From: an uncultured Sulfitobacter sp.
Lineage (GTDB): Bacteria > Pseudomonadota > Alphaproteobacteria > Rhodobacterales > Rhodobacteraceae
Direction: 5' to 3'
DNA: 64,000 bases
Assembly (NCBI GenBank): GCA_947502265.1
Contig: CANMZB010000014.1
Coordinates: 62,001 to 126,000, forward strand
The position numbers and the translations under genes are program-made. The notes beneath the pieces are model-generated. The model ran no database searches, was not told the origin of the DNA, and saw only the letters and a program-made list of their open reading frames with translations. Positions 45,427 through 62,944 of this stretch are shown piece after piece. The first letter of the stretch is position 1. Every line of letters starts with the position of its first letter.

Positions 45427-46088
45427 CCTTTTGGGAGTGAAACAGCTGATGCGGCGCATACCAACCCGTCCGGCTCCGTTCGACATTTAGCCTGCGTGGC
45501 AATTGCGGTCGTGCTGTGATTGCTTCGTGAAAACGGCGCTTGTGTGAGCGTTGGATGCGCCGGCACGGCGCGCGCGGGGGCGAAACATCCTATTTGGATT
45601 CCCTTTGTACTGCTACCGCATGCTTGTTCTTTGGGTCGGCAAAAAAATACCGAGCGCTTTTGGGTGTTTTAGACAGGTGTTGACTAAGATCAAATAGAAG
45701 TTATTGAATAAGCTGTGTTTACAGTTAACCGTATTTGCAGCGGCGTTGATAATCTCGGATTTGACGAAAGGCTGCATTTCATGCTGTAACAGCAAAGAGG
45801 GAGGCTGACTTGTTCAGTGTTTCGAGAAATAGAACCTCATTTTTGAGGGCGGATTTCAGATCATTGATGATCTGTTTTGTGGCCTGCGCCAGATCAAAAG
45901 GATGATCGGGGGAGCGGGACGATAAAGCACCATACACGATTCGCGACAGGAGTAACGAGGCGGCGGTTTAGCTGTTTTGTCCCGGCGAAGATGTGCCTGA
46001 CCAGCTGTCAGGCATGAATTTAAAAGAGTTTCGACCTTGCGAGAATCGCAAAGGTACGGAGAGAAGAATTCAACAGGAGAGAGAAGAA
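45427..46088. other. AT-rich intergenic region before the RTX gene
   Basis: No credible gene lies in these 662 bases. The stretch 45630-45860 is much more AT-rich than the rest of the window. It contains an FNR/CRP-type site (listed separately) and probably the promoter of the RTX gene, followed by a leader of up to about 300 bases. Confidence 0.55.
45680..45693. promoter_or_regulatory. FNR/CRP-type site
   Basis: TTGACTAAGATCAA fits the TTGAY-N4-RTCAA pattern recognised by FnrL and related regulators in Rhodobacterales. It lies 396 bases before the RTX-gene start, so control of that gene is only plausible if the promoter is far upstream. Confidence 0.4.
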
Positions 46089-48431
46089 ATGGCTGACGAT
46101 ATAAACACAACCCAAACCAGTTTTGGACCTGCATTGATCAACGGTCTCGGAGGGGACGCAGGGTTCGGTGAAAACGTACTTGCTCGCAACGATGACTCAT
46201 CAACCGCAGAAATTGATGTCTCCTCGGTCTTCGAAGACGGCCTTAATTTCTTTGGCCGCGAATTTGACAGCTTGTGGGTGAACAACAACGGCAGTGTAAC
46301 GTTCAACGGCGCGCGTTCGACATATACGCCAGATGTCATCACTGAAAACAACGATAACCCCGAAATTACACCGTTTTTTGCAGACGTCGACACCCGCGGC
46401 GGGGAGACGACAGCATCGCCCGGCGGAAACTCGACCGGATCGAACAATGTCTATTATGATTTTGATGAAGTGAATGACCGATTCATCGTAACATGGGATG
46501 ACGTTGGCTATTTCTCGAGCCAAACCGACCTGACGAACGCTTTTCAACTGATTATCTCCGATGAGGGTGGCGGTAACTTCGATTTCGAATTCCGCTATGA
46601 GAACATCGACTGGACGACCGGCGGCGCAAGCGGCGGCGTTGGCGGATTGGGCGGTACAGTGGCCCGCGCTGGTTGGACCGCAAGCACCGGCGATCCTGCC
46701 GCCTATTTCGAACTGCCGGAGTCGGGCGATCAGGAAGGTATTCTGAATCTCGATCAGTCCGTTGGTAATACCGGTCTTGTCGGTCGCTGGGAATTCTCGG
46801 TGCGCTCGGGTGATATCGTTTCGGCCGATCTTCCGGCCTTGCCGGATAACACGCTCTCGGGTTGGACATCGGGCGATCCGCACCTTCTTACACTGGATGG
46901 TGTTGCCTATGACTATCACGCGGCGGGTGAATATGTTCTGCTGCGCGCAACGGACGGGAGCGATTTCGAGGTTCAATCCCGGATGACTCCGATCGGTAAC
47001 TCGGTGAGCGTGAATTCGGCGATTGCCGCCCGCATGGACGGCTCGAACGTGATGGTCGACTCGACCGACGATGTTCCGCTGTCGATTGATGGCGTCGCAA
47101 CGCAGGTCGAGGATTTCGGTTTCGTCGAGGTTGGCAATGACCGCGTTTACCGCGAGGGGGACACCTATACGATGCTGTTCGCCGGAGAGGATGACACTGT
47201 GAATGCGGGTGACAGCCGCATCGCAGTGACGGTTCGGGACGGACGTGTTGACCTTGATGTCCAACTGAACACCGATCGCGCCGGAGCGCTGGAAGGGTTG
47301 CTGGGCAACGCAGATGGAAATGCGGAAAACGATATCGCGCTTGCAGACGGCACACCGTTGGCACGTCCGCTCAACTATAGCGATCTTTATGGTCAGTATC
47401 GGGATGACTGGCGCGTCAGCGCAGCCGCAGACAGCCTGTTCACCTATGACGATGGCGAGAGTCTGGAAGGGTTCTACGACGCGGATTATCCTGGTTCCAT
47501 TACCACATTGGCTGATTTTAGCGAGGCAGAAGTCGACGCCGCGATTGCTGCTGTGACTGCGGCAGGGCTGACCCCCGGAACAGTGAACTTCAACAATGCG
47601 GTTCTCGATTTTGCACTGACGCAGGACGCGAGTTATATCACTTCTGCTGAAAATGCAGAGATCGTATCCGAAACCGCTGCACCTGAAGTCGTGGTTGAAA
47701 CCGGTGTGAGGCTGGTTGGCACCGATGGGCCGGATACGCTGGTTGGCACTGAATACGGTGATACGCTACGGGGTCTTGACGGGAATGACCGTTTGACCGG
47801 TAACGCCGGTAATGACCTTCTGGAAGGGGGGGACGGTTCGGACGTCATTGATGGGGGAGCCGGAAATGACACGATCATCGGCGGCGATACCGAAGATGAC
47901 CGGAGCGATGTCATCTTTGGCGGCGCAGGCGACGACCTGATTTATGGCGGTTATGGCAACGATATCATCAACGGCGGTACTGGAAACGACACCATAGCCG
48001 GCGGATTTGGCTCCGACGAAATCTATGGTCAGGGTGGCGATGACCAGATTAACGGTGGCGCCCTTTCCGATCTGATCTATGGCGGTGACGGGGATGATTT
48101 CATCAACGGCGGCTTTGGACATGACCGGGTCAATGGGGGTGACGGGGCTGACCAGTTCTTCCACCTTGGCATTGCTGATCATGGCAGCGACTGGATTCAG
48201 GATTATGATGCGGCAGAGGGCGATGTCCTTGTGTTTGGCAATACGAACGCCACCGCGAATCAGTTTCAGGTCAATTTCATTGAAACCGAAAACGCAGGCG
48301 ACGCCGGTGTTGAGGAGGGCTTTGTGATCTACCGTCCAACCGGACAGATCATGTGGGCGCTTGTCGATGCAGGGGAGCAGGAATCCATTGATCTGCGGAT
48401 CGGCGGAGAAACATTCGATCTTCTAGCCTAA
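46089..48431 (+). CDS. Secreted NIDO-VWD-RTX calcium-binding protein
   Basis: This 780-residue protein has no Sec signal and is probably exported by a type I system through its C-terminal end. Residues ~45-200 look nidogen-like (FGREFDSLWVNNNGSVTFNG; NAFQLIISDEGGGNFDFEFR). Residues ~258-430 look like a von Willebrand type D domain (GWTSGDPHLLTLDGVAYDYH at ~258 and EGLLGNADGNAENDIALADG at ~402). Residues 544-~690 are GGxGxDxxx nonapeptide repeats that bind calcium. The rest (GSDWIQDYDAAEGDVLVFGN onwards) is the usual RTX end. CAGGAGAGAGAAGAA precedes the ATG at 46089. The mix suggests a surface adhesin or matrix protein. No type I transporter genes are near. Confidence 0.88.
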   Translation: MADDINTTQTSFGPALINGLGGDAGFGENVLARNDDSSTAEIDVSSVFEDGLNFFGREFDSLWVNNNGSVTFNGARSTYTPDVITENNDNPEITPFFADVDTRGGETTASPGGNSTGSNNVYYDFDEVNDRFIVTWDDVGYFSSQTDLTNAFQLIISDEGGGNFDFEFRYENIDWTTGGASGGVGGLGGTVARAGWTASTGDPAAYFELPESGDQEGILNLDQSVGNTGLVGRWEFSVRSGDIVSADLPALPDNTLSGWTSGDPHLLTLDGVAYDYHAAGEYVLLRATDGSDFEVQSRMTPIGNSVSVNSAIAARMDGSNVMVDSTDDVPLSIDGVATQVEDFGFVEVGNDRVYREGDTYTMLFAGEDDTVNAGDSRIAVTVRDGRVDLDVQLNTDRAGALEGLLGNADGNAENDIALADGTPLARPLNYSDLYGQYRDDWRVSAAADSLFTYDDGESLEGFYDADYPGSITTLADFSEAEVDAAIAAVTAAGLTPGTVNFNNAVLDFALTQDASYITSAENAEIVSETAAPEVVVETGVRLVGTDGPDTLVGTEYGDTLRGLDGNDRLTGNAGNDLLEGGDGSDVIDGGAGNDTIIGGDTEDDRSDVIFGGAGDDLIYGGYGNDIINGGTGNDTIAGGFGSDEIYGQGGDDQINGGALSDLIYGGDGDDFINGGFGHDRVNGGDGADQFFHLGIADHGSDWIQDYDAAEGDVLVFGNTNATANQFQVNFIETENAGDAGVEEGFVIYRPTGQIMWALVDAGEQESIDLRIGGETFDLLA
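47718..48150 (+). repeat. RTX nonapeptide repeat block
   Basis: About fifteen 27-base units encode variants of GGxGNDxIx, for example GGAGNDTIIG, GGYGNDIIN, GGTGNDTIA, GGDGDDFIN. One insert (EDDRS near 47900) breaks the period. Each pair of units binds calcium outside the cell and drives folding after export. Confidence 0.9.
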
Positions 48432-48507: not shown

Positions 48508-49380
48508 TCAGGTAAATTTCCTGAATAACTTTGTTTGGTCGAACATATCTTCCAGCGTTTCCATTCGCTCTTTGGTTTCGTTCCAGTTCAGGCTTTGAAC
48601 GGACGAGATCATCGTTTCCACCAAGAGCATTGTGGTCGCTGATGAGTCCCATGCCGATGGCACGATGATCCGACAGCTCAAGCTGATGTCAGCCACATGA
48701 TGTACCGGCGAACGCCATTGATCGGTAAACAAGATAATCTTGGCCCCGCGATCATGGGCCATCTCGGCCAGTTTCAAGGTGTTGTTTTCGTAGCGACGCA
48801 CATCGAAAATGACAAAAATGTCGCCCTCTTTCGCATTCAACAAATAATGCGGCCATGTGTTTGATGTGGACTGAACATGCGTCAGGTTGGGCCGGATGAC
48901 CTGCATGTGCAGATAGAAATATTCGGCCAGGGTGTGTGTAATCCGCCCTCCAACAATGAAAAGATGGCGCGATTGATCTGCGACAAGCCCGCAGGCATCA
49001 TCGAATTCAGCAGGGTCAATCTGGCCCAGCGTCAGACGAATATTGTCAATCACCGCATCTGTGAACCTGTTCAAAAGATGTTCGGACGGGGCGGCACCGG
49101 CCCATGTGTCGTGCTTGGCGATCGGGCTTTTTGCCTTGGCCCGCAACTCTTCGCGCAACTCGGATTGAAAGTCGGGATATCCCTTGTAGCCAAGTTTGTG
49201 CACCATTCGGGCCACGGTCGGGACGGATACGTTTGCATCCTTTGCAAGCGCTGTCAGCGGACCAAGGCCGGATGCCGGATAATTCTCAAGGATCGACAGC
49301 GCAAGTTGCCTTTCTGCGCGCGTCAGTTCGTCCAGCTTTTGCTGGATCCGGTCGGATATTGTCTGCGTTGCTTCGGACAT
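48508..49380 (-). CDS. RpiR/MurR-family transcriptional regulator
   Basis: This 290-residue regulator has an N-terminal HTH (residues ~1-77; LTALAKDANVSVPTVARMVH) and a C-terminal SIS domain (residues ~125-250; SRHLFIVGGRITHTLAEYFY, KEGDIFVIFDVRRYENNTLK) that normally binds a phosphosugar or other small ligand. It is divergent from a catabolic and transport cluster with 113 bases between, so control of that cluster is likely. The region between carries a TGTAATA/TATTGACA inverted repeat. Its coding GC looks lower than its neighbours. Confidence 0.92.
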   Translation of the reverse strand: MSEATQTISDRIQQKLDELTRAERQLALSILENYPASGLGPLTALAKDANVSVPTVARMVHKLGYKGYPDFQSELREELRAKAKSPIAKHDTWAGAAPSEHLLNRFTDAVIDNIRLTLGQIDPAEFDDACGLVADQSRHLFIVGGRITHTLAEYFYLHMQVIRPNLTHVQSTSNTWPHYLLNAKEGDIFVIFDVRRYENNTLKLAEMAHDRGAKIILFTDQWRSPVHHVADISLSCRIIVPSAWDSSATTMLLVETMISSVQSLNWNETKERMETLEDMFDQTKLFRKFT

Positions 49381-49422
49381 ATGCGCCTCCGTCTGTTCAT
49401 TTTATACCATAACATTCCTCGC

Positions 49423-49452
49423 TGTAATATTTTTTTCAAAATTTTATTGACA
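49423..49452. promoter_or_regulatory. Candidate RpiR operator in the divergent promoter
   Basis: TGTAATA (49423-49429) and TATTGACA (49445-49452, reverse complement TGTCAATA) form an imperfect inverted repeat around an AT-rich core. It is nearly equidistant from rpiR (43 bases) and the amidohydrolase gene (41 bases). TTGACA inside it may be a -35 element for the plus strand. Confidence 0.45.
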
Positions 49453-49493
49453 AACATCCCGCCGAACAACCACCCTGTGATCAGGGAACCAAG

Positions 49494-50267
49494 ATGAATC
49501 ATATGCAGTCTGCCTCACCACATACGCCGGTTTTGCTTCTCAATCCTGAGGGACGATCCTCTGTGGTCGTTGTATGCGAACATGCGAGCCGCTTTATTCC
49601 GCCCGCGTTTGACGACCTTGGTCTGGATGATGTTGCACGGCAAAGCCACATCGCGTGGGATCCCGGTGCGCTGGACGTAGCGCGCGGTTTGGCCATGCGG
49701 ATCGACGCAAAATTGGTCGCAACGTCTGTGTCGCGCCTGATCTATGACTGCAACCGCCCCCCGTCCGCAACTGCGGCGATGCCCGCACGAAGCGAAGCGT
49801 TTGATGTTCCGGGGAACGCGACCCTGACGGCCGCGCAACGTCAGGATCGAACCGACAACTATTATGAACCGTTTCGGGGGAGCCTTGCTGCGACAGTTGC
49901 GGCCACGCCAAATCCTGTCATCGTCACGGTGCACAGCTTTACGCCGGTCTATCATGGCAAGCCGCGTTCGGTCGAAATCGGTATTTTGCACGATACGGAC
50001 GCGCGCCTTGCCGAGGCGATGGCGCAGGTCGCGCCGCTCCACACGGAGGCCAAAGTCGAGATCAATGTGCCATACGGCCCGCAAGACGGCGTGACCCACA
50101 CCCTCAGAGAACATGCGATTGAGGCGGGTCACCTGAATGTCATGTTGGAAATTCGCAATGATCTGATCGAAACCGCCCGACAGCAGGACGCCATGGCGGA
50201 GTGCCTCGCCAGCTGGTTGACCGCCGCACTTGGCGTTTTGAACGTGCAGGGGGGCGCGCAATGCTAG
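49494..50267 (+). CDS. N-formylglutamate amidohydrolase family protein
   Basis: This 257-residue protein matches the N-formylglutamate amidohydrolase (HutG2) fold: VVVVCEHASRFIPPAF with CEHAS at residues 28-32, DPGALDVARGLAMRIDAKLV, SRLIYDCNRPP, and HSFTPVYHGKPRSVEIGIL, which hold the putative metal ligands. The family splits formamide or similar amide bonds of glutamate. There is no hut operon here; instead a ligase that can make gamma-glutamyl amides is encoded nearby, so it may cleave such amides. AGGGA precedes the ATG. It overlaps dctQ by seven bases. Confidence 0.85.
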   Translation: MNHMQSASPHTPVLLLNPEGRSSVVVVCEHASRFIPPAFDDLGLDDVARQSHIAWDPGALDVARGLAMRIDAKLVATSVSRLIYDCNRPPSATAAMPARSEAFDVPGNATLTAAQRQDRTDNYYEPFRGSLAATVAATPNPVIVTVHSFTPVYHGKPRSVEIGILHDTDARLAEAMAQVAPLHTEAKVEINVPYGPQDGVTHTLREHAIEAGHLNVMLEIRNDLIETARQQDAMAECLASWLTAALGVLNVQGGAQC

Positions 50268-50830
50268 GCCTGATGCAGCGTTATATTCGCGTGGTTGATG
50301 CGGTGAATTACCGCGTCGGGCGCATCATTATGTATGGAATTTTTGTTTTGATGGGGATTTTGCTGTGGTCCTCAATCAGCAAGACGTTCTTTCTCCCGTC
50401 GCTGTGGACGTTGGAAATGGCACAGTTTGTTATGGTCGCCTATTATATTCTTGGCGGTCCCTATTCGATCCAACTCGGCTCGAATGTGCGGATGGATTTG
50501 CTGTATGGTGAGTGGTCGCTGCGCAAGAAAGCATGGTTTGACCTGATCACTGTGCTGTTCCTTATTTTCTATCTCTGCGTCCTTCTTTACGGAGCCGTCA
50601 GCTCGACTGCGTATTCATTGGGTTATTGGGGCACAGAGCCGTTTTCGTTCTTTGGCGGGTTGCTCACCGGGGCCGAGGAAATCGGCCGCATAGAGCGTTC
50701 GCCCACCGCATGGCGTCCCTATTTGTGGCCCGTCAAATCAATCATGATTCTGGGGATGTTCCTGATGCTTTTGCAATGCTTGTCGGAACTTTTCAAAGAT
50801 GTCCTGCGCATCAACGGTGAAGCAGTCTGA
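50261..50830 (+). CDS. dctQ: TRAP transporter small permease (DctQ)
   Basis: This 189-residue four-helix subunit starts MLGLMQRYIRVVDAVNYRVG and has the DctQ segments IMYGIFVLMGILLWSSISKT, TLEMAQFVMVAYYILGGPYS and WFDLITVLFLIFYLCVLLYG. It joins the binding protein to the large permease in sodium-driven uptake of organic anions or related solutes. GGGGGG lies seven bases before the ATG at 50261. Length is typical. Confidence 0.9.
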   Translation: MLGLMQRYIRVVDAVNYRVGRIIMYGIFVLMGILLWSSISKTFFLPSLWTLEMAQFVMVAYYILGGPYSIQLGSNVRMDLLYGEWSLRKKAWFDLITVLFLIFYLCVLLYGAVSSTAYSLGYWGTEPFSFFGGLLTGAEEIGRIERSPTAWRPYLWPVKSIMILGMFLMLLQCLSELFKDVLRINGEAV

Positions 50831-52152
50831 TGTCGTATGAATTGATTGCCACCTTAATGTTTTCTTCAATGATGCTGATGCTGCTGACTGGCCAGCGTGT
50901 GTTTGGCGCCATCGGATTTATCGCCGTCGTCGCGGCGCTTTTGCTTTGGGGCGACAAGGGCGGCTTTGACATCGGGTTTTCTGCTGCGATGAAGCTGATG
51001 AAATGGTATCCGCTTTTGACGCTGCCGATGTTTATTTTCATGGGCTATGTGCTGTCGGAAAGCAAAATCGCAGACGATCTTTATAAGATGTTCCATGTCT
51101 GGATGGGCGGGCTGCGCGGTGGTCTTGCCATTGGTACGATCGGCCTGATGGTGCTGATTTCCGCGATGAACGGGTTAAGCGTGGCGGGTATGGCGATCGG
51201 GTCTACCATTGCGCTGCCGGAGCTTTTGAAACGCGGCTATGACAAGCGGATGGTCACTGGCGTCATTCAGGCGGGGTCCAGTCTGGGCATCCTTGTCCCG
51301 CCGTCCGTCGTGTTGGTTCTTTACGCGATGATTGCCCGCCAGCCTGTCGGGCAGCTTTGGTTGGCGGGGGTCATTCCGGGCCTGATGATGGCTGGTTTGT
51401 TTGTGATTTACATCGTCGTGCGGTGCCGGATCAATCCGGTGCTCGGGCCGGTTCTGGAGGCAAGCGAACGCGATATTCCGCGCGCTGAAAAGATGCGTCT
51501 GCTGCGCGCGGGCCTGCTGCCTATCATCATTTTTGCGGTCATGATGGTGCCTTTTGTGAAAGGCTGGACGTCGCTGGTCGAGAGTTCGGCCATCGGCGCA
51601 ATCGCAGCGTTTGTAGCTGCGGTTGTCAAGGGGCGCATGACGCGCGAGGTGTTCGAAAATTCGGTGCGCAATACGCTTGGCATCACTTGCATGTTCATGT
51701 GGATCATCCTCGCCGCGCTGGCGTTTGGTGCAGTGTTTGACGGGCTGGGTGCCGTCAAGGCAATCGAGAGCGTCTTTACCGAACGGCTGAACCTCAACCC
51801 GTGGACCATCCTGATCCTGATGCAACTCAGCTTCCTTTTGATGGGTACGTTTCTGGATGACACCGCAATGCTGGTGATCGTCGCGCCGCTTTATGTGCCG
51901 CTTGTCGGGGAGCTTGGTTTTGATCTGATCTGGTATGGCATCCTGTATACGATCACGACGCAGATCGCCTATATGACGCCGCCTTTTGGCTATAACCTGT
52001 TTTTGATGCGCGCGATGGCACCGCCCGAAATTTCACTGCGCGACATCTATTCTTCCATAACGCCGTTTGTGCTGATCATGGTTCTGGCCCTTGCGCTGGT
52101 CATGGTGTTCCCTGCCATCGCAACGTGGCTCCCGAATTTCGTGTATAATTAA
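50830..52152 (+). CDS. dctM: TRAP transporter large permease (DctM)
   Basis: This 440-residue membrane protein has about twelve helices and the DctM signature: LFIGxx-like segments, GLSVAGMAIGSTIALPELLK, SLGILVPPSVVLVLYAMIAR and the C-terminal IAYMTPPFGYNLFLMRAMAP. It is the sodium-coupled channel part of the TRAP transporter. The ATG overlaps the dctQ stop by one base. A hairpin lies after its stop, before dctP. Confidence 0.93.
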   Translation: MSYELIATLMFSSMMLMLLTGQRVFGAIGFIAVVAALLLWGDKGGFDIGFSAAMKLMKWYPLLTLPMFIFMGYVLSESKIADDLYKMFHVWMGGLRGGLAIGTIGLMVLISAMNGLSVAGMAIGSTIALPELLKRGYDKRMVTGVIQAGSSLGILVPPSVVLVLYAMIARQPVGQLWLAGVIPGLMMAGLFVIYIVVRCRINPVLGPVLEASERDIPRAEKMRLLRAGLLPIIIFAVMMVPFVKGWTSLVESSAIGAIAAFVAAVVKGRMTREVFENSVRNTLGITCMFMWIILAALAFGAVFDGLGAVKAIESVFTERLNLNPWTILILMQLSFLLMGTFLDDTAMLVIVAPLYVPLVGELGFDLIWYGILYTITTQIAYMTPPFGYNLFLMRAMAPPEISLRDIYSSITPFVLIMVLALALVMVFPAIATWLPNFVYN

Positions 52153-52162
52153 CCACAAAAGA

Positions 52163-52178
52163 ACCGCTCTAAAGCGGT
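52163..52178 (+). promoter_or_regulatory. Hairpin between dctM and dctP
   Basis: ACCGCT and AGCGGT form a perfect 6-bp stem with a CTAA loop 26 bases before the dctP start. It lacks a T-tract and may stabilise the dctP message, which must be made in excess. Confidence 0.4.
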
Positions 52179-52203
52179 CGAAACCCAACAAAGGAGAGAA
52201 GAC

Positions 52204-53235
52204 ATGACTTCAAGACGCAAGTTTATCCAAGGGGCGGCGGTTGTTCCGGCGGCGGCTTTGGCCACGCCTGCATTGGCACAAAATACCATCAAATGGCGGA
52301 TGCAAACCTATGCTGGCGCTGCATTGGCCGCCGAGGTGATCGTTCCCGCGATCGAGATGTTCAACAAAATCGCTGGCGACCGTATGCAGATCGAGCTGTT
52401 TTTCGCAGACCAGCTGGTTCCGACCGGCGAACTGTTTCAGGCCATGCAGCGGGGCACCATCGATGCGGTGCAATCGGACGACGATTCTATGGCGTCGCCG
52501 ACCGAGGTTACGGTGTTTGGCGGTTATTTCCCGTTCGGGTCGCGCTACTCTCTCGATGTGCCCGTGCTGTTCAACCAATACGGTCTGAACGAAATCTGGG
52601 ATGAAGAATATTCCAAGGTCGGAGTAAAGCACATCTCCGCAGGGGCATGGGATCCGTGCCACTTTGCCACGAAAGACCCGATCCGCAGCCTTGCGGACCT
52701 TGAAGGTAAGCGCATCTTTACCTTCCCCACCGCCGGCCGGTTCCTGACCCGGTTCGGGGTCGTGCCCGTCAACCTGCCATGGGAAGACATCGAAGTGGCG
52801 ATGCAAACCGGCGAACTGGACGGGATCGCGTGGTCTGGCATCACCGAAGATTACACCGTGGGCTGGGCCGATGTGACCAACTACTTCCTGACCAACAACA
52901 TCTCGGGGGCATGGGCCGGGTCGTTCTTTGCGAATATGGATCGCTGGAACGAATTGCCGGAAGATCTGCAAACGCTGTTTCGTGTTTGCTGTGATCAGTC
53001 GCATTATCACCGCCAGTGGTGGTATTGGGGCGGCGAGGCCGATCTGCGGGTCAATGGTCCCAAGCTGGAACTGACGTCAATTCCTGACGACGAATGGGCA
53101 ACAGTCGAAGCCGAGGCGCAAGTCTTCTGGGAAGAAATCGCTGCCGAGTCCGAGACCAAGCGTCGCGTTGTTGATATCTTCAAGCAATACAACGCCGATA
53201 TGCTTAAAGCTGGACGGCCATACCGTTACGGTTAA
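52204..53235 (+). CDS. dctP: TRAP transporter substrate-binding protein (DctP)
   Basis: This 343-residue periplasmic receptor has a Tat-type signal (MTSRRKFIQGAAVVPAAALA, then TPALAQ). The binding domain contains KWRMQTYAGAALAAEVIVPA, QRGTIDAVQSDDDSMASPTE, LADLEGKRIFTFPTAGRFLT and MQTGELDGIAWSGITEDYTV. The family belongs with receptors for 2-oxo acids or other organic anions. The substrate is not shown; an amine-containing acid would fit the cluster. AAAGGAGAGAAGAC precedes the ATG. Confidence 0.92.
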   Translation: MTSRRKFIQGAAVVPAAALATPALAQNTIKWRMQTYAGAALAAEVIVPAIEMFNKIAGDRMQIELFFADQLVPTGELFQAMQRGTIDAVQSDDDSMASPTEVTVFGGYFPFGSRYSLDVPVLFNQYGLNEIWDEEYSKVGVKHISAGAWDPCHFATKDPIRSLADLEGKRIFTFPTAGRFLTRFGVVPVNLPWEDIEVAMQTGELDGIAWSGITEDYTVGWADVTNYFLTNNISGAWAGSFFANMDRWNELPEDLQTLFRVCCDQSHYHRQWWYWGGEADLRVNGPKLELTSIPDDEWATVEAEAQVFWEEIAAESETKRRVVDIFKQYNADMLKAGRPYRYG

Positions 53236-53295
53236 ACAACTTTTTGGGGGCGGCCCTTGGTTGCCTCCATATCTTGCGCGCAAAGTGGATAGAAA

Positions 53296-54660
53296 ATGCC
53301 CGGCACATTGACATTTGACGACCTGAAATCCCACGTCTCGGAGGGATCAATTGATACAGTCCTTGTGTGTTTCGTAGACATGCAAGGCCGCTTGATGGGC
53401 AAGCGTTTTCACGCGGTGAACTTCGTAGAAACGTCGTTCAAGGAAACCCATTGCTGCAACTATCTGCTGGCCACCGATCTGGAGATGGCCACGCCCGATG
53501 GCTACGCTGCCACCAACTGGCAATCGGGGTATGGCGATTATGTCATGGCACCTGACCTCACCACGATCCGGCATGTTCCATGGCTGGAAGGGACGGCGTT
53601 GGTGCTGTGCGACGTTCTTGACCACCACACCCACAAGCCCGTTCCTCATTCCCCCCGCGCGATCCTGAAAAGACAGATCGAGCGGCTGGAGGCATTGGGG
53701 TTCGAGGCCAAAATGGCGACCGAGCTTGAGTTCTTTTTGTTCGAGAAAAGCTTTGATGAAATCCGCAAGGAGGACTTCCGCAATCTGGACCCCATCAGCG
53801 GGTACAACGAGGATTACCACATCTTCCAGACCACCAAAGAAGAGGGCGTGATGCGTCCGATCCGCAATCATTTGTTTGCTGCGGGTCTGCCCATCGAGAA
53901 CACCAAAGGCGAGGCCGAAGCAGGGCAAGAGGAGCTTAACATTCGCTACTCTCCTGCCTTGGATTGTGCTGATTACCATTCCATTGCCAAACACGCGATT
54001 AAAGAAATTGCATGGCAGCACGGGCGCGCGGTAACTTTCCTGCCCAAATGGCATAAGGACCGCGTAGGATCATCAAGCCACGTTCACCAATCGCTTTGGA
54101 TAGACGGTGAGGCGGCGTTTTTTGACGAAACACGCCCACACGGAATGTCCGAAGTGATGGCACACTACATGGCGGGGCTGATCAAGTATGCGCCTGATTA
54201 CACCTATTTTCTGGCGCCTTATGTAAACAGTTACAAGCGGTTCGCCAAAGGCACCTTTGCGCCGACCAAAACCGTTTGGTCCGTCGACAACCGCACAGCA
54301 GGCTTCCGGTTGTGCGGTGAAAATACCAACGGCGTGCGCGTTGAATGTCGCATTGGCGGGTCCGATCTGAACCCTTACCTCGCACAGGCTGTCATGCTCG
54401 CCGCGGGCATCAAGGGCATCGAAGATGCGATGGAATTGGCCCCCGCCACCACGGGCGACGTGTATGAAGACGCCAAAGCCACCGACATTCCCCAAACCTT
54501 GCGCGCGGCCACCGAAACCCTGCGCGGATCGACGTTCCTGCGCGCCGCCCTTGGCGACGATGTTGTCGATCATTACACCCGCGCAGCGGAGTGGGAACAA
54601 GAAGAATTTGACCGTGTTGTGACCGATTGGGAAATCGCGCGCGGATTTGAGAGGGCTTAA
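53296..54660 (+). CDS. Glutamine synthetase-like gamma-glutamyl-amide ligase
   Basis: This 454-residue protein has the type III-like GS layout used by PuuA, GlnT and IpuC. Metal ligands Glu143 and Glu145 are in ATELEFFLFEKSFDE; further motifs are GEAEAGQEELNIRYSPALDC, GSSSHVHQSLW (catalytic loop His region) and NSYKRFAKGTFAPTKTVWSV, ending ECRIGGSDLNPYLAQAVMLA. GS-like ligases in such operons attach glutamate to an amine using ATP. It is not a housekeeping GlnA; no adenylylation loop (NLYDLP-type) is present. Followed six bases later by an aldehyde dehydrogenase gene. Confidence 0.88.
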   Translation: MPGTLTFDDLKSHVSEGSIDTVLVCFVDMQGRLMGKRFHAVNFVETSFKETHCCNYLLATDLEMATPDGYAATNWQSGYGDYVMAPDLTTIRHVPWLEGTALVLCDVLDHHTHKPVPHSPRAILKRQIERLEALGFEAKMATELEFFLFEKSFDEIRKEDFRNLDPISGYNEDYHIFQTTKEEGVMRPIRNHLFAAGLPIENTKGEAEAGQEELNIRYSPALDCADYHSIAKHAIKEIAWQHGRAVTFLPKWHKDRVGSSSHVHQSLWIDGEAAFFDETRPHGMSEVMAHYMAGLIKYAPDYTYFLAPYVNSYKRFAKGTFAPTKTVWSVDNRTAGFRLCGENTNGVRVECRIGGSDLNPYLAQAVMLAAGIKGIEDAMELAPATTGDVYEDAKATDIPQTLRAATETLRGSTFLRAALGDDVVDHYTRAAEWEQEEFDRVVTDWEIARGFERA

Positions 54661-54665
54661 GAGCA

Positions 54666-56039
54666 ATGACCATCCAATGTATCTCCCCCGTTGACGGCTC
54701 TGTATATGCCGAACGTGAAACCCTGTCGCGCAGCGAGGCTGACGGCGCTGTTGCGCGGGCGAAATCCGCGCAAACCGCGTGGGCCGCACGCCCGCTTTCA
54801 GAGCGTATTGCCCTTGTGCAGGCAGGTGTCGCAGCCGTTGGTGCCATGAACGACGAGATCGTGCCGGAGATCGCATGGCAGATGGGGCGCCCGGTCCGTT
54901 ACGGCGGCGAATTCAGCGGCTTTAACGAACGCGCAAGCTATATGGCGAGCATCGCGCAAGACGCTTTGGCCCCGATTGAAATTGAAGACAGCGATGCATT
55001 TCGCCGTGTCATAAAGCGTGTGCCGCACGGTGTCGTTCTGGTCGTCGCGCCGTGGAATTACCCCTATATGACGGCGATCAACACGGTGGCCCCCGCCTTG
55101 ATCGCGGGCAATGCGGTGATGCTGAAACACGCCTCGCAAACGCCACTGGTAGGGGAGCGAATGGCGGCCGCGTTCCACGCCGCAGGCATTCCGCAGGACG
55201 TGTTTCAAAACGTGTTCCTTGATCACCAGACAACTTCCGAACTGATCGCGGACCGCGCATTCGGGTTCGTGAACTTCACAGGGTCGGTAGGGGGCGGCAA
55301 GGCGATGGAGCGGGCAGCCGCAGGCACGTTCACGGGCATCGGGCTTGAGCTTGGCGGCAAAGACCCCGGATATGTGATGGATGATGCAAATCTGGACGCT
55401 GCCGTGGACACATTAATCGACGGTGCGATGTTTAACGCGGGCCAGTGTTGCTGCGGGATTGAACGGATTTATGTCCACGAAAGCCTGTTTGATGCCTTTG
55501 TCGAAAAGGCCGTGACGATTGTGAACGGTTACAAGCTTGGAAATCCGCTGGAGGCGGAAACCACTTTGGGTCCAATGGCCCATGTGCGTTTTGCCGATGA
55601 GGTCCGCGCCCAAACTGCTGAGGCAATCGCCGCAGGTGCCACCGCGCATATTGATCCCGCCAGCTTTCCCGAGGATGGCGGCGCGTATCTGATGCCGCAG
55701 ATCCTTACAAACGTGACCCATGACATGCGTGTGATGCGCGAAGAAAGCTTTGGTCCCGTAGTTGGCATCATGTCCGTCAAAGACGACGCCGATGCGGTCC
55801 GGCTGATGAACGACAGCGATTTCGGGCTAACCGCGTCGCTCTGGACCAATGACCCCGCCCGCGCCGAGGCGATTGCCGATCAAATCGAAACCGGCACGGT
55901 GTTTTTGAATCGCGCCGATTACCTTGATCCGGCGCTGTGCTGGACCGGCTGCAAAGACACCGGTCGCGGTGGCGGTTTGTCGGTTATCGGCTATCACAAT
56001 CTGACACGACCCAAGTCGTACCACCTCAAGAAGGCTTAA
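54666..56039 (+). CDS. Aldehyde dehydrogenase (NAD(P)-dependent)
   Basis: This 457-residue enzyme has the ALDH fold: VVAPWNYPYMTAINTVAPAL, FVNFTGSVGGGKAMERAAAG, the catalytic Glu region GIGLELGGKDPGYVMDDANL and the catalytic Cys262 in FNAGQCCCGIERIYVHESLF. It lacks nothing expected. In this cluster it probably oxidises an aldehyde made by the following alcohol dehydrogenase to an acid. A ribosome-binding site lies about ten bases before the ATG. Confidence 0.9.
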   Translation: MTIQCISPVDGSVYAERETLSRSEADGAVARAKSAQTAWAARPLSERIALVQAGVAAVGAMNDEIVPEIAWQMGRPVRYGGEFSGFNERASYMASIAQDALAPIEIEDSDAFRRVIKRVPHGVVLVVAPWNYPYMTAINTVAPALIAGNAVMLKHASQTPLVGERMAAAFHAAGIPQDVFQNVFLDHQTTSELIADRAFGFVNFTGSVGGGKAMERAAAGTFTGIGLELGGKDPGYVMDDANLDAAVDTLIDGAMFNAGQCCCGIERIYVHESLFDAFVEKAVTIVNGYKLGNPLEAETTLGPMAHVRFADEVRAQTAEAIAAGATAHIDPASFPEDGGAYLMPQILTNVTHDMRVMREESFGPVVGIMSVKDDADAVRLMNDSDFGLTASLWTNDPARAEAIADQIETGTVFLNRADYLDPALCWTGCKDTGRGGGLSVIGYHNLTRPKSYHLKKA

Positions 56040-56042
56040 AAC

Positions 56043-57188
56043 ATGAGCATCACCGCAAACTGGTCCTACCCCACAGCAATCCGTTTCGGCGCCGGTCGCA
56101 TTAGCGAAATCGCGGACGCTTGCGCCGCTGCGGGCATCAAAAAGCCGCTGCTGGTCACCGACCGCGGCTTGGCAAACATGGACATCACAACCAGAACACT
56201 TGACCTGCTTGAGGCGGGGGGCCTTGGCCGGGCGATGTTTTCGGACGTTGATCCAAATCCGAACGAAAAGAACGCTGCTGATGGTGTGAAGGCCTATAAT
56301 GACGGGGGGCATGACGGGGTTGTGGCCTTTGGCGGCGGCTCCGGCCTTGATCTGGGTAAGCTGGTGGCGTTTCTGGCGGGCCAAACCCGCCCGCTTTGGG
56401 ATTTCGAGGATATCGGTGATTGGTGGACACGGGCGGATGCCAACGCCATCGCGCCGATTGTCGCCGTACCGACCACCGCCGGAACCGGGTCCGAAGTTGG
56501 GCGCGCCTCGGTCATCACCAATTCGCAAACCGAGCAAAAGAAGATCATCTTCCACCCGAAGTTCCTGCCCAGCGTTGTGATCTGCGATCCTGAGCTTACC
56601 GTCGGGATGCCGGGCTTTATCACAGCGGGCACCGGCCTTGATGCCTTTGCCCACTGCGTCGAAGCCTTCAGTTCGCCGCATTACCACCCGATGTCGCAAG
56701 GTATGGCGCTTGAGGGAATGCGGTTGGTTAAAACATACTTGCCGCGTGCTTTTGCCGATGGCAGCGATATCGAGGCCCGTGCGCATATGATGTCAGCGGC
56801 AATCATGGGGGCGACCGCGTTTCAAAAGGGTCTCGGCGCAATCCATGCGCTGTCCCATCCGATTGGCGCGATCTATCATACCCACCACGGCACAACGAAC
56901 GCGGTGTGCATGCCTGCAGTTTTGCAGTTTAACAAACCCGCGATCAAAGGCGTGATCGGTGACGCGGCCAATTACCTTGGCATATCCGGCGGGTTCGACG
57001 GCTTTTGCGCCTATGTGGACGAGTTGAATGCCGCGTTGGGTATTGCGAAAAACCTGTCCGGGCTGGGCATCGAAAACCCTGATATCGACAGGATCGTCGC
57101 AGGCGCGTTGATCGACCCGAGCACCGGAGGAAATCCGATCGAGATGACCAAAGAAAATACAACCAGACTTTTGCTTGAGATTGTCTGA
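56043..57188 (+). CDS. Iron-containing alcohol dehydrogenase
   Basis: This 381-residue group III alcohol dehydrogenase has FGGGSGLDLGKLVAFLAGQT (NAD-binding GGGS), VPTTAGTGSEVGRASVITNS and metal ligands in TGLDAFAHCVEAFSSPHYHP and ALSHPIGAIYHTHHGTTNAV. It oxidises primary alcohols to aldehydes or the reverse. AAGAAGG precedes its ATG, three bases after the aldehyde dehydrogenase gene. Together these suit stepwise oxidation of an alcohol group to an acid. Confidence 0.9.
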   Translation: MSITANWSYPTAIRFGAGRISEIADACAAAGIKKPLLVTDRGLANMDITTRTLDLLEAGGLGRAMFSDVDPNPNEKNAADGVKAYNDGGHDGVVAFGGGSGLDLGKLVAFLAGQTRPLWDFEDIGDWWTRADANAIAPIVAVPTTAGTGSEVGRASVITNSQTEQKKIIFHPKFLPSVVICDPELTVGMPGFITAGTGLDAFAHCVEAFSSPHYHPMSQGMALEGMRLVKTYLPRAFADGSDIEARAHMMSAAIMGATAFQKGLGAIHALSHPIGAIYHTHHGTTNAVCMPAVLQFNKPAIKGVIGDAANYLGISGGFDGFCAYVDELNAALGIAKNLSGLGIENPDIDRIVAGALIDPSTGGNPIEMTKENTTRLLLEIV

Positions 57189-57203
57189 TCATGAACTTCA
57201 TGA
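57189..57203 (+). promoter_or_regulatory. 15-base perfect palindrome after the alcohol dehydrogenase gene
   Basis: TCATGAA-C-TTCATGA begins directly after the TGA stop, 131 bases before the ABC binding-protein gene. It may be an operator for that gene. The gap from here to 57333 is otherwise empty and fairly AT-rich, suiting a second promoter. Confidence 0.4.
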
Positions 57204-57333
57204 GCGCACAGATGGCCCGCCTTTGGGCTGATAGAATAATGTCGCAAAGGTTTCATATATCAATGCTATGGACACTTTGTAATCCCGTTGCCCTAATGAT
57301 GGGCGGCTCAACTCGAATAGATGGAAAATTGAC

Positions 57334-58395
57334 ATGAAATATGGCCTTGTCTCAACAGCAGCGCTTGTCGCTGTCCTATCGACAACCGCAGTATCCGCCG
57401 AGACCTTGCGGCTTTTGACGTGGGGCGGATACGCACCCGATGACGTTATCGCGCTGTTCGAAGCCGAAACCGGTCACACCGTAGAGGTGACAACGTCGAA
57501 TAATGAAGAAATGATCGCAAAGCTGCGCGCAACGAACGGCGGCGGTTTTGACCTTGCACAACCCAGCCAGGACCGGATCACAAGCGCGCAAGAAGAGTTT
57601 GGTATCTACAAGCCCATCGACATGTCGCGTGTGGATGCTGCGCAATTCATCCCGTCGATGCTGACTGCGACAGCGACAAATTCGACGTTTGACGGTGGTG
57701 TTTATGGCCTGCCTCACATCTGGGGGACCAGCGGCCTTGTTGTTAACACTGCGGAGGCCGGTCAAGTTGCCGATTATACCGATCTTTGTGACGCGTCAGT
57801 TGCCGGCAAGGTTTCGTACCGTTTGAAACGCCCGACGCTTATCGGATTTGCCTATGCGATGGGGCTTGACCCGTTTGCGGCGTATTCCGATCAGGAAGCC
57901 TATCAAGAGATCCTTGGCCAGGTCGAGGAAGCGCTGATTTCGTGTAAACCCAACGTGAAAACCTATTGGGACGGCGGCGATGAAATCAAAAACCTGCTGC
58001 GTTCGGGCGAAGTTGTCGCGTCGATGGCTTGGGATACAGGCGGTTGGCAACTCAATGCCGACAATGCGGACATCACGTTTGTGGCGCCTGCGTCGGGTGC
58101 TCTGGGCTGGATTGATACTTTTGTTCTGCCATCACGCGGGCGGGCGGATGATGCGGCTTATGACTGGATCAATTTCGTCATGCGCCCCGATATCGCGGCG
58201 ATGATCACAAACACTGCGGGCAATTTCACAGCCGCAGTTGGTGGTGACGCTGGCGTCCGTGCAGACCTGAAAGCGCGGTATCAAGCGAGCTTTGATCAGG
58301 CAGCCATCGACAACATCAAGTGGTATCCGCCAGTGCCCGCAGGTCTTGAGACTATCGAAGGCGCGACACTGGACCGCATCAACGCTGCGAACTAA
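57334..58395 (+). CDS. ABC transporter substrate-binding protein, polyamine type
   Basis: This 353-residue periplasmic protein has a signal peptide (MKYGLVSTAALVAVLSTTAV ending SAE) and the PotD/PotF-type fold: LRLLTWGGYAPDDVIALFEA, GVYGLPHIWGTSGLVVNTAE, PFAAYSDQEAYQEILGQVEE and MAWDTGGWQLNADNADITFV. PotD relatives bind polyamines or other amines. Whether the acidic polyamine-binding residues are all kept cannot be judged without alignment. It is followed by a terminator, then potA-type genes. Confidence 0.9.
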   Translation: MKYGLVSTAALVAVLSTTAVSAETLRLLTWGGYAPDDVIALFEAETGHTVEVTTSNNEEMIAKLRATNGGGFDLAQPSQDRITSAQEEFGIYKPIDMSRVDAAQFIPSMLTATATNSTFDGGVYGLPHIWGTSGLVVNTAEAGQVADYTDLCDASVAGKVSYRLKRPTLIGFAYAMGLDPFAAYSDQEAYQEILGQVEEALISCKPNVKTYWDGGDEIKNLLRSGEVVASMAWDTGGWQLNADNADITFVAPASGALGWIDTFVLPSRGRADDAAYDWINFVMRPDIAAMITNTAGNFTAAVGGDAGVRADLKARYQASFDQAAIDNIKWYPPVPAGLETIEGATLDRINAAN

Positions 58396-58417
58396 GAACT
58401 TTGTAATGAACAAAAGG

Positions 58418-58445
58418 GAAGGGCGCAGGTCGCGCCCTTCTTTTT
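58418..58445 (+). terminator. Terminator between binding-protein and ATPase genes
   Basis: GAAGGGCGC (58418-58426) pairs with GCGCCCTTC (58432-58440) and runs into TTTTT. Most transcripts should end here, leaving the binding protein in excess over the membrane parts. Confidence 0.88.
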
Positions 58446-58466
58446 GACTTTGAAAGGCCAAGACCA

Positions 58467-59585
58467 ATGGCTCCAACTGCTGATCTTGTGTGCCGAGATC
58501 TGACCAAAGACTTTGACGACTTCCGCGCGGTGGATCATGTCAGCTTTGAAGTCCCGCAAGGGTCTTTCTTTTCCATCCTCGGCCCATCAGGCTGTGGCAA
58601 GACCACGCTTTTGCGGATGATCGCAGGGTTCCAGTTTCCAAGCAGTGGCGATCTTTTGATCAAGGGGAATTCCATGATTGGCGTGGGGCCGAACAAACGC
58701 CCTGTCTCCATGGTTTTTCAACATCTTGCGCTGTTTCCAATGATGAATATCGGCAGAAATGTGGGCTTTGGTTTGCGCCAGCGCGGCGTGTCCTCGTCAG
58801 AGATAAAGGCGCGCGTCGGGCGGGTGCTTGAGCGGGTCGGATTACCCGGTATAGAAGACCGTCAGGTTGACCAACTGTCGGGCGGGCAAAAGCAACGTGT
58901 CGCGATCGCGCGTTGCATGGTGTTGGAGCCCGATGTTTTGCTGCTGGACGAGCCGCTCGGCGCGCTTGATCTGAAGCTGCGCGAACACATGAAGATCGAG
59001 CTAAAAACCCTTCAGGCCGAATTCAACACGACCTTTGTCTATATCACCCACGATCAATCCGAGGCTTTGGTGATGAGCGATAATATCGCCGTCATGAACA
59101 AAGGTAAATTTGACCAGATTGGCACCGCAAAGGAGCTTTATTACGAACCTGCGAATGCTTTTGTCGCGGGATTTGTTGGCGACGCAAACCGGTTCGAGGG
59201 CAAGGTCACAGCCGTAAACGGCCAGATTGTCTCGCTTGTGACCGGGGGTGGTGTTGAACTTCACGCCCAGGCCACAGCGGGGGTTCCCGCAATCGGGCAG
59301 CGCGCGCAAATCTTTGTGCGACCCGAAGCGATTGCATTGTCAAAAGATCCCTCGCAAGGGTCCGAAAGCCCGAATGCAAGTAAGCGTATCGTGGACAGCG
59401 TGTTGTTCAATGGCGCAAACAGTATGGTCATTTTACGCGATCCGAAGTCGGGTGAAACGATTCAGGTCACCCTGCCACAGACAGGTGACTTACTGGGGCT
59501 GACAAAGGGCGAAACGGTCCTTGCCGGCTGGCACCCGACGCAGGCGCGCTGTTTCGCGTCCGGGGGTGCAGTAGATGGTATCTGA
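58467..59585 (+). CDS. ABC transporter ATP-binding protein, PotA type
   Basis: This 372-residue ATPase has Walker A in [20 protein letters not shown], the signature [20 protein letters not shown], Walker B in [20 protein letters not shown] and the switch His in [21 protein letters not shown] domain forms the C-terminal third. It energises the uptake system of the flanking binding protein and permeases. The end overlaps the next gene by 11 bases. Confidence 0.95.
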
Positions 59586-60438
59586 TCGCTCCAAGCTCGG
59601 ATTTTACCTGCTTTTGTCGCCGTTGCTGTTGTGGTTGGTGACGTTGATTATCCTGCCGCACATCGGATTGTTCTTTGTCTCGATCAGCGAAAAGATAGGG
59701 GTGCGCGAATATGAAACGGGTCTTGGAAACTACGCCGTTTTCTTTAACGAGCCGCTTTACTGGCGCACCTTTGCACGCACCGCATTTATGTCAATCTCCA
59801 CAACGGTTCTGACATTGGTTCTGGGGTTTCCGATCGCCTATTACATTGCCAAGCTGACCCGCGGGCGCACGAAAACAACTTTGTTTTTGATGTGTCTGAT
59901 CCCGTTCTGGGTGTCCGAACTTGTTCGCACCTTTGGCTGGATGATCCTTCTGCGCGAAACCGGCGTGCTGTCCAACGTCCTGCAATATACCGGTCTCATT
60001 TCCGGGCCGGTCGAATTTTTGTATAACGATGCGGCGATCATGGTGGGCCTTGTTTATACGTCGATCCTGTTCATGATCGTGCCCTTGGTCACCACCCTTG
60101 ATAGCCTTGATGACAGTCTGATCGAGGCGGGGTATGATCTGGGCGGCTCCGGCATCTCTATCCTGCGCGAGATCGTGATACCGCATGCCATGCCCGGCAT
60201 CGTTTCGGGCTGCATCGTGGTTTTCATGCTGTCGCTGGGCAACTATTTAACGCCGATCCTGTTGGGCGGCAAAGACAGCCTGTGGTTCACCGGCCTGATC
60301 TACACCCAGTTCATCACGCGCTTCAATTGGGAGCTGGGCTCGGCCTTTGGCTTCCTTCTTTTGGGCCTGTCATCCGCAGTTGTGTTTCTCGGGCTGAAGC
60401 TGTCGCGCCAATCCCTGTCCAATACGATGGGGCGCTAA
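59575..60438 (+). CDS. ABC transporter permease, PotB type
   Basis: This 287-residue inner-membrane permease has six helices and the EAA-type loop in LIEAGYDLGGSGISILREIV followed by IPHAMPGIVSGCIVVF, which docks on the ATPase. LKARYPxx-like start is [20 protein letters not shown]. It pairs with the next permease. Its start overlaps the ATPase gene by 11 bases, so it is translationally coupled. Confidence 0.93.
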   Translation: MVSDRSKLGFYLLLSPLLLWLVTLIILPHIGLFFVSISEKIGVREYETGLGNYAVFFNEPLYWRTFARTAFMSISTTVLTLVLGFPIAYYIAKLTRGRTKTTLFLMCLIPFWVSELVRTFGWMILLRETGVLSNVLQYTGLISGPVEFLYNDAAIMVGLVYTSILFMIVPLVTTLDSLDDSLIEAGYDLGGSGISILREIVIPHAMPGIVSGCIVVFMLSLGNYLTPILLGGKDSLWFTGLIYTQFITRFNWELGSAFGFLLLGLSSAVVFLGLKLSRQSLSNTMGR

Positions 60439-60439
60439 T

Positions 60440-61294
60440 ATGATCCCCACCGTCCCACAATCTTCCGCTTTGAAATGGTCTTATCGGGCCTATGTAAGCC
60501 TGTTTTTTGTCTACCTCGCCTTGCCATTGACGGTTGTTTGCGCTTTCGCGTTCAACAACAGCGTGTTCCCCTCTCTGCCGTGGGAAGGCTTTACAATGGC
60601 ATGGTTTTTCGGGACCGAGGCCCCTTTTATCGGAGTGTTTCACGAGCGTTCCATTTTGCGCGCCATCGGAACGTCAGCCTTCGTTGCAATCTGGGTTTCC
60701 GGACTTTCGTTGGCGGTTGGCACATGCAACGCATTTTTGTTCGTAAGGCACGATTTCCGCGGTAAAGGGTTTCTCTACATATTGATGCTACTCCCTCTGA
60801 TCATCCCCGGTGTGATCCTTGGCATCTCGATTCTGGTCTTCGCAAGCTCCGTCGCCAATACTTTGGAGGACGCGACCGGACTTTGGTTCGACGGGCTGCG
60901 GCCCGGACTGATCCTCGTTATTCTGGGCCAGTTTTCATTCATCACGACCTTTGCAACTCTGGTAATTTCCGCGCGATTGCAAAAATTTGACCTTAGCCTG
61001 GAGGAAGCCGCGCTTAACCTTGGCGCGACCAAATGGGGCGCGGTCCGTCAGATTACGTTGCCTTTCCTTCTGCCTGCAATTGTCGGCGCGGGCGTTGTTT
61101 CAATCCTGATGAGCTTTGAAAATTTCAACACGACGCTGATGCTTGTTGGATCTGACTCACCCTTGACGATTACCATGTTTGACAAGCTCAAGCACGGCTC
61201 CACACCGGTCTTGAATGCTGTGTCGCTTTTGCTGATTGTTGTTTCGGCGGCGCTTGGATTGCTCTCGTTGATATTCCAAAAGTCGAAAGAATAA
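60440..61294 (+). CDS. ABC transporter permease, PotC type
   Basis: This 284-residue permease has six helices and the EAA loop LSLEEAALNLGATKWGAVRQ followed by ITLPFLLPAIVGAGVV. It starts one base after the stop of the first permease gene. With its partner it forms the membrane channel for an amine-type solute. Length and motifs are normal for PotC-like proteins. Confidence 0.93.
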   Translation: MIPTVPQSSALKWSYRAYVSLFFVYLALPLTVVCAFAFNNSVFPSLPWEGFTMAWFFGTEAPFIGVFHERSILRAIGTSAFVAIWVSGLSLAVGTCNAFLFVRHDFRGKGFLYILMLLPLIIPGVILGISILVFASSVANTLEDATGLWFDGLRPGLILVILGQFSFITTFATLVISARLQKFDLSLEEAALNLGATKWGAVRQITLPFLLPAIVGAGVVSILMSFENFNTTLMLVGSDSPLTITMFDKLKHGSTPVLNAVSLLLIVVSAALGLLSLIFQKSKE

Positions 61295-61875: not shown

Positions 61876-61891
61876 ATTTAAGGATATGGAC

Positions 61892-62944
61892 ATGACTGAA
61901 TATGCTCTTAATGTCCGCGCCAGAAGCGCAGGCTTGGCTCACCGGCTCTGGGCTAGAGAAAAGGTCTGGCTGTTCTCGGCAGGCCTGCTCATTACGCTGT
62001 TTCTTCTTGCGCCAACACTGGGTGCCACAACTGTGGGCTTTGCCGCGCAAAACCTGCTGAATGTCGCCCCGTTCCTTGTCCTGTCTGTCGGAATCGCGGC
62101 CTATGCGGGTGCAACAGGTGCGGATGGGCTGATCGCACGCGCCTTTACCGGATCACCGGGTGTTATGATCCTGATCGCGGCAGTGGCCGGAGGCCTCTCG
62201 CCCTTTTGCTCTTGTGGTGTCATCCCTCTGATTGCTGCCTTGTTGGTTATGGGGGTGCCGCTTTCTGCGGTTATGGCCTTCTGGCTGGCGTCACCGGTGA
62301 TGGATCCGTCGATGTTTCTGTTGACCACCGGCATGCTCGGCTTTGAATTTGCGGTTGCCAAGACCATAACGGCTATCGGCCTGGGCGTGTTCGGCGGCTT
62401 TGTAGTCCACATGGTATCGCGTGCGGGCGGCCTGACTGATCCACTACGCAGCGGTGTTGGTAACGGCGGTTGCGGTGGGTCCAAAGTTAGATCGACCCAA
62501 CCCGTTGTCTGGAAATTCTGGAGCGACAGCGCACGGGTTGCGAAGTTCTGGCGCGAAGCCATCAAGACCACGCTGTTCCTTGCCAAATGGCTGACCCTCG
62601 CATTCATTCTGGAAAGCCTGATGCTGGCGTGGCTTCCTGCCGATCTGGTGGCACGGGCGCTTGGCGGTACGGGCATAGCCCCTATCGGGATCGCAACGCT
62701 TGTGGGCGTGCCTGCTTATCTGAACGGTTACGCCGCCCTGCCGCTGGTTGGCGGCCTGATGGAGCAAGGCATGGCCCCCGGTGCGGGGCTGGCGTTTCTG
62801 GTTGCAGGCGGGGTTAGCTCGTTGCCCGCCGCCATCGCCGTCTGGGCGCTGGTTAAACCGCAGGTGTTTCTCCTGTATCTGGGTATCGCTGTGACTGGTT
62901 CCTTTGCGAGCGGGCTTTTGTTCCAGCTCTGGATTGCAGTGTGA
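61892..62944 (+). CDS. ArsP/DUF318-type permease
   Basis: This 350-residue membrane protein of the PF03773-type permease family has eight or so helices. Its signature is GGLSPFCSCGVIPLIAALLV with Cys106 and Cys108, followed by MAFWLASPVMDPSMF; a second half includes GYAALPLVGGLMEQGMAPGA. Relatives include ArsP, which exports trivalent organoarsenicals, and putative metal exporters such as SO_0444. Pairing with a vicinal-cysteine ArsR favours arsenic or organoarsenic export. The ATG at 61892 has AAGGA seven bases upstream. Confidence 0.85.
   Translation: MTEYALNVRARSAGLAHRLWAREKVWLFSAGLLITLFLLAPTLGATTVGFAAQNLLNVAPFLVLSVGIAAYAGATGADGLIARAFTGSPGVMILIAAVAGGLSPFCSCGVIPLIAALLVMGVPLSAVMAFWLASPVMDPSMFLLTTGMLGFEFAVAKTITAIGLGVFGGFVVHMVSRAGGLTDPLRSGVGNGGCGGSKVRSTQPVVWKFWSDSARVAKFWREAIKTTLFLAKWLTLAFILESLMLAWLPADLVARALGGTGIAPIGIATLVGVPAYLNGYAALPLVGGLMEQGMAPGAGLAFLVAGGVSSLPAAIAVWALVKPQVFLLYLGIAVTGSFASGLLFQLWIAV

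Follow-up and report, generated by a model that had tools for sequence, protein, structure and literature searches.

The window analyzed here, a stretch of 64,000 nucleotides from a contig of an uncultured Sulfitobacter sp., carries at positions 48508-57188 a block of eight genes that can be identified from its sequence, with high confidence, as an eto-type operon for ethanolamine catabolism through the gamma-glutamylation route. An original prediction had proposed for this locus a sequence of ligation, two oxidations, and hydrolysis acting on an amino alcohol, a scheme that equals the one published for equivalent operons (PMC10132767, PMC9397018, PMC6529630; these and the other papers are cited from excerpts). 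Our analysis makes it very probable that this chemistry applies, the substrate being ethanolamine. Nevertheless, the locus, the pathway, and the role of the PF05013 hydrolase are already known: an operon with the same order and functions has been described in strain MED193 (PMC10132767), and the hydrolase role, which had been regarded as new, appears in Table 2 of PMC9397018 and in PMC6529630. Ethanolamine derived from membrane lipids is a source of nitrogen and carbon, and the gene etoX, encoding the binding protein of its transporter, is common and expressed in the ocean (PMC10132767). The window thus represents one further well-conserved case of the eto operon, and answers the question of substrate and hydrolase that the original prediction had raised.

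In the proposed pathway, the tripartite ATP-independent periplasmic (TRAP) transporter EtoXVW would import ethanolamine, which a glutamine synthetase (GS)-like ligase would couple to the gamma-carboxyl group of glutamate using ATP. The resulting gamma-glutamylethanolamide would be converted to the aldehyde by an iron-containing alcohol dehydrogenase (Fe-ADH), and the aldehyde to gamma-glutamylglycine by an aldehyde dehydrogenase (ALDH), after which the PF05013 amidohydrolase would free glycine and allow glutamate to be recycled. This is how we infer the single enzyme steps in this organism, together with the role of a divergent RpiR-family protein, which probably controls the operon. The features of the locus are as follows.

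48508..49380, minus strand: RpiR-family regulator (HTH_6 and SIS), divergent, probable regulator of the operon (Pfam; gene order)
49381..49493, no strand: intergenic control region (dyad scan)
49494..50267, plus strand: GGAH, PF05013 amidohydrolase, proposed gamma-glutamylglycine hydrolase, probably not HutG (Pfam; equivalent of MED193_10026)
50258..50830, plus strand: EtoV, TRAP small permease, DctQ (Pfam; gene order)
50830..52152, plus strand: EtoW, TRAP large permease, DctM (Pfam; curated models; gene order)
52204..53235, plus strand: EtoX, predicted TRAP ethanolamine-binding protein, type A (641 bits to 4uab/4xf5)
53296..54660, plus strand: ETAGA, GS-like ligase, proposed gamma-glutamylethanolamide synthetase (PDB sequence matches; below curated-model cut-offs)
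54666..56039, plus strand: GAADDH, aldehyde dehydrogenase, proposed to convert the aldehyde to gamma-glutamylglycine (Pfam; motifs)
56043..57188, plus strand: GETADH, iron-containing alcohol dehydrogenase, proposed to oxidize gamma-glutamylethanolamide (Pfam; motifs)
57334..61294, plus strand: PotDABC-like ATP-binding cassette (ABC) transporter, optional neighbour, not core (Pfam; gene-order survey), with the solute-binding protein (SBP) at 57334-58395, the ATPase at 58467-59585, and permeases at 59575-60438 and 60440-61294, all on the plus strand (Pfam)

Transporter and enzymes of the operon

The list of open reading frames (ORFs) and the Pfam matches place every gene named in the original prediction where it had been located. 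The plus-strand series starts at 49494 with the FGase gene (PF05013, 126.5 bits) and continues with DctQ (50258), DctM (50830), DctP (52204), the GS-like gene (53296; Gln-synt_C, 317.5 bits), ALDH (54666; Aldedh, 385.6 bits), and Fe-ADH (56043), each matching its family, while the divergent minus-strand ORF has RpiR helix-turn-helix and SIS matches. The ABC transporter genes match an SBP, an ATPase, and two BPD_transp_1 permeases.

The range of amino alcohols originally considered can be narrowed to ethanolamine because of the binding protein. The DctP protein of the window reaches 641 bits with the PDB sequences 4uab/4xf5, while the next PDB sequence gives 68 bits, and we take 4uab to be the ethanolamine-bound form of Csal_0678 from Chromohalobacter salexigens. 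Similarly, the GS-like protein scores 769 bits with 5dm3, presumably the product of the C. salexigens gene adjoining Csal_0678, and 598 bits with 11zs, all other PDB sequences remaining at or below 186 bits. On this assignment of 4uab and 5dm3, both EtoX and the ligase of the window would be close to C. salexigens proteins. Ethanolamine is bound in the structure of Csal_0678, from which the arginine usual in TRAP binding proteins is missing (PMC4646407), and ethanolamine has been named among the unusual TRAP ligands (PMC5812351). At the position of Phe172 of the window protein, the aligned TRAP binding protein 4yzz has an Arg, which is probably the arginine meant (the Arg-147 equivalent). Together with the 4uab match, this residue points to an EtoX-type protein devoid of the TRAP arginine.

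The score of the ligase lies below the cut-offs of the curated NCBIfam models for GlnA (247.1 versus 429.15) and for gln_synth_III (234.1 versus 469.6), and the protein was rejected as GlnA or as a type III glutamine synthetase. ALDH contains the motifs ELGGKDP at position 228 and GQCCCG at 259, which we take to be catalytic, and Fe-ADH contains Asp/His motifs at 200-208 and 268-283, presumably involved in metal binding. The only PDB match of the 49494 protein is 2odf, the hypothetical protein Atu2144 (229 bits).

Comparison with known systems

The closest description is that of the ethanolamine operon of Phaeobacter sp. MED193 (MED193_10021-10056), which comprises RpiR (MED193_10021), GGAH (MED193_10026), EtoV, EtoW, EtoX, ETAGA, GAADDH, and GETADH (PMC10132767). 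Its eight functions and their order, from RpiR to Fe-ADH, are identical to those of the window, a match made by gene order and function names. On phosphorylethanolamine, MED193 had significantly raised levels of GGAH, EtoX, ETAGA, GAADDH, and GETADH, and its EtoX binds ethanolamine with a Kd of 7.9 uM (PMC10132767). The glutamylation pathway of C. salexigens, encoded in the Csal_0678 region, is credited to Vetting 2015 and Gerlt 2016 in both PMC10132767 and PMC6529630, and the four Pfam families given for it in Table 2 of PMC9397018 (PF00120, PF00465, PF00171, and PF05013) are all present among the enzymes of the window.

The ethanolamine pathway of Streptomyces coelicolor that involves GlnA4 (SCO1613) follows the same chemistry as that proposed here (PMC6529630). 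In the discussion of that paper, SCO1615, an enzyme of the formylglutamate amidohydrolase family, is proposed as the gamma-glutamylglycine amidohydrolase, which is at odds with a figure legend of the same paper, where the hydrolase slot (orf5) is a glutamine amidotransferase. The S. coelicolor cluster differs from the window in having a short-chain dehydrogenase, a putative transporter, another regulator, and another gene order (PMC6529630). In addition, a 4.6 kb Halomonas contig (L223) carries DctP, GS, ALDH, and part of FeADH, ordered as in the window.

Gamma-glutamyl logic, a GS-like ligase, and an ALDH are also features of the Puu putrescine pathway of E. coli, which employs the flavin oxidase PuuB and, as its hydrolase, the class I amidotransferase-type enzyme PuuD. 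The window has the logic, the ligase, and the ALDH in common with this pathway, but neither an oxidase nor a class I amidotransferase was found in the Pfam matches of the ten locus genes scanned. Membership in the Puu pathway was rejected on the score of the ligase with the GGputSyn model of NCBIfam (200.8 versus a cut-off of 650).

Conservation across the order

The search for the same gene set that the original prediction had called for was carried out in 149 genomes of the order, including that of the window. It yielded 107 loci from 104 other genomes with the ligase, and 79 of them, examined by tblastn with gene-specific identity cut-offs and a coverage of at least 50%, keep the exact order RpiR (minus strand), FGase, DctQ, DctM, DctP, GS, ALDH, and FeADH, the place and orientation of the RpiR gene included. 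Since this order recurs so often, the arrangement is not due to chance. The remaining loci comprise 12 with GS-ALDH-FeADH in which another gene is missing, doubled, or past the contig end, 12 with GS-FeADH and no ALDH, and four other partial forms. A second, partly overlapping set, the 80 top-ranking named loci among 590 candidates, shows the exact order in 59 cases and includes Yoonia, Sulfitobacter, Roseobacter, Thalassospira, Stappia, and Hoeflea. The FGase proteins of operon loci are 41-63% identical to that of the window.

At the level of genomes, the ligase was detected in 105 of the 149 (E up to 1e-100) and EtoX in 94 (E up to 1e-90). Both were present in 91 genomes, the ligase only in 14, EtoX only in three, and neither in 41 (Fisher p 4e-21, kinship not modelled).

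Several loci depart from the common arrangement. Operons that are otherwise complete but short of one oxidation gene were observed in L057/L181 (ALDH) and in L046/L164 and L054/L179 (Fe-ADH). Among the 12 ALDH-less loci, 11 sit apart from the hydrolase and TRAP genes. A pair of GS and Fe-ADH genes accompanied by no ALDH, hydrolase, or TRAP genes occurs in varied surroundings in L052, L079, L088, L098, L109, L110, L115, L122, L125, L133, L135, L169, L176, L186, and L203. A comparison of protein families revealed no common replacement gene among 25 loci devoid of ALDH or TRAP genes, where the only large recurring family besides GS, FeADH, and ALDH was a generic ABC ATPase (15 proteins).

Two types of EtoX

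A set of 151 full-length EtoX proteins, formed by that of the window and those of 150 loci from both sets (rows with stops dropped), splits at 69% identity to the window protein into 109 members of type A, including the window, and 42 of type B. Mean identity is 85% within type A, 83% within type B, and 64% between types. A total of 16 columns, including H143W, G147A, W149Q, H153N, A155N, F172Y, and W193Y, differ between the types, each at 93% or more of its type, and 4uab carries the letters of type A over the stretch aligned with the window protein. Two EtoX matches in two genomes of one genus (G041:C1:397934-398962 and G071:C9:77254-78285) contain one in-frame TAA each and are possibly decaying.

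The distribution of these types was compared on FastTree trees of 85 rows with DctM, GS, and DctP (the window and 84 of the 107 loci), built with neither a shuffle control nor a support test. The type switches once on the EtoX tree, at least eight times on the DctM tree, and at least 14 times on the GS tree, and both types are present in nine genera of this set. Because the type switches far more often on the trees of its neighbours, the binding-protein gene appears to have moved independently of them. It is conceivable, though we consider it unlikely, that etoX is a swappable module whose two types, with near-fixed differences at Phe172 and in the stretch 143-155 among others, were exchanged repeatedly while permeases and enzymes stayed in place, retuning the operon between ethanolamine and a related amine, with the PotD-like ABC transporter adding a further amine or an ethanolamine ester. 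The EtoX homologues retrieved in PMC10132767 are said there to keep the ethanolamine site. Swapping of etoX types was not met in the papers cited here, and PMC10132767 is the only paper found for EtoX with ethanolamine whose title concerns this protein.

Alternative readings

A number of observations weigh against the ethanolamine reading. The C. salexigens pathway is termed predicted in silico in PMC6529630, although PMC10132767 terms it demonstrated. Moreover, a table of the latter paper shows that EtoX of MED193 is also raised by phosphate starvation alone, and no further amino alcohol is found among the non-ligands reported there in the parts cited (phosphorylethanolamine, two glycerol phosphates, and phosphocholine). 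In our survey, no EtoX was detected at E up to 1e-90 in 14 of the 105 genomes that carry the ligase, and at least six of the 91 genomes with both (G060, G062, G073, G076, G098, and G112) have the two genes far apart. ALDH is missing from 12 of the 107 loci, in L057 from an otherwise complete operon, and Fe-ADH from the otherwise complete L046 and L054. Therefore, in such genomes and loci the enzymes may act on other amines or lean on remote genes.

The locus could be thought to break down another small amino alcohol, such as alaninol, 3-aminopropanol, or N-methylethanolamine, through this series of steps, ethanolamine being no more than a side substrate. EtoX types A and B share one slot, so that ligands may differ among operons, and the panel of ligands just described leaves room for this view. 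Nevertheless, we regard it as very improbable, given that EtoX of the window belongs to type A with its high score to 4uab, that the equivalent operon of MED193 answers to phosphorylethanolamine, and that its EtoX binds ethanolamine (PMC10132767). Even harder to sustain, to the point of being barely credible, is the view that 49494 encodes HutG and 53296 a surplus glutamine synthetase, two genes placed beside a TRAP transporter by chance. The names of families PF05013 and PF00120 do point to HutG and glutamine synthetase, but the genome of the window contains three PF05013 genes, and a stronger copy (236.5 bits), on a different contig from the window, lies about 530 bases from the sole urocanase match and on the same strand. 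This copy is therefore the likely HutG, and 49494, being neither the only PF05013 gene nor the one that adjoins urocanase, was rejected for that function. Likewise, the best match to PF00120 (450.7 bits) among the four glutamine-synthetase-family genes of this genome is located outside the locus, and the order kept in 79 loci speaks against chance grouping. As for the Eut pathway, no match to the ethanolamine ammonia-lyase subunit EutB was found in the 109 contigs of this genome, in a search whose control was positive in one of 14 genomes, that of E. coli.

Returning to the eto operon, the original prediction had also counted the ABC transporter at 57334-61294 among its parts. The eight-gene core stands, but the transporter is not a conserved member: its SBP, counted as near when at least 60% identical and within the sequence retrieved for each locus, which extends about 9.5 kb beyond the ligase, adjoins only 11 of the 107 loci (nine on the same strand, two on the opposite one) and 12 of the 80 named loci (eight and four), so gene order rules it out as a core part. 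It is rather unlikely that this transporter is an integral second importer for ethanolamine or one of its precursors. Such a function would fit with the SBP being present (E up to 1e-100) in 31 of the 149 genomes (24 at 73% identity or more, seven at 52-54%), all 31 of which also hold the ligase and EtoX, compared with 94 EtoX-positive genomes of 149 overall. The association with ligase and EtoX has p values of 4e-6 and 7e-8, or 0.007 and 0.002 by genus (11 of 11), with the genome of the window included and kinship not modelled, and several lineages have the transporter next to the operon, in either orientation. On the other hand, a gap of 145 bases (57189-57333) separates it from FeADH, most PDB relatives of the SBP carry putrescine- or spermidine-binding names, the best one being the Lmo0810 protein of unnamed function (95 bits), and the figure legend of the MED193 operon shows no ABC transporter, unlike the window (PMC10132767). 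The ABC transporter is an optional but recurrent partner of the pathway.

Control region and flanking genes

No exact 6-bp dyad (spacing 0-8) was found in the intergenic region of the window (49381-49493). In a set of 149 intergenic stretches, that of the window and those of 148 loci, no exact 6-bp dyad recurs in more than five (no more than one in one shuffle), and no claim is made for a shared RpiR operator. Several of the commonest 8-mers of these stretches hold TTGACA-like or CTGTCAA-like words. Promoter and terminator scans returned 10 and 19 sites, respectively, versus 7.9 and 16.1 expected, and thus carry no information.

Just upstream of the operon, positions 45993-48431 encode a protein with nidogen-like, VWD, and RTX repeat domains, and an ArsP_1-family permease is encoded downstream of the ABC transporter, at 61886-62944.

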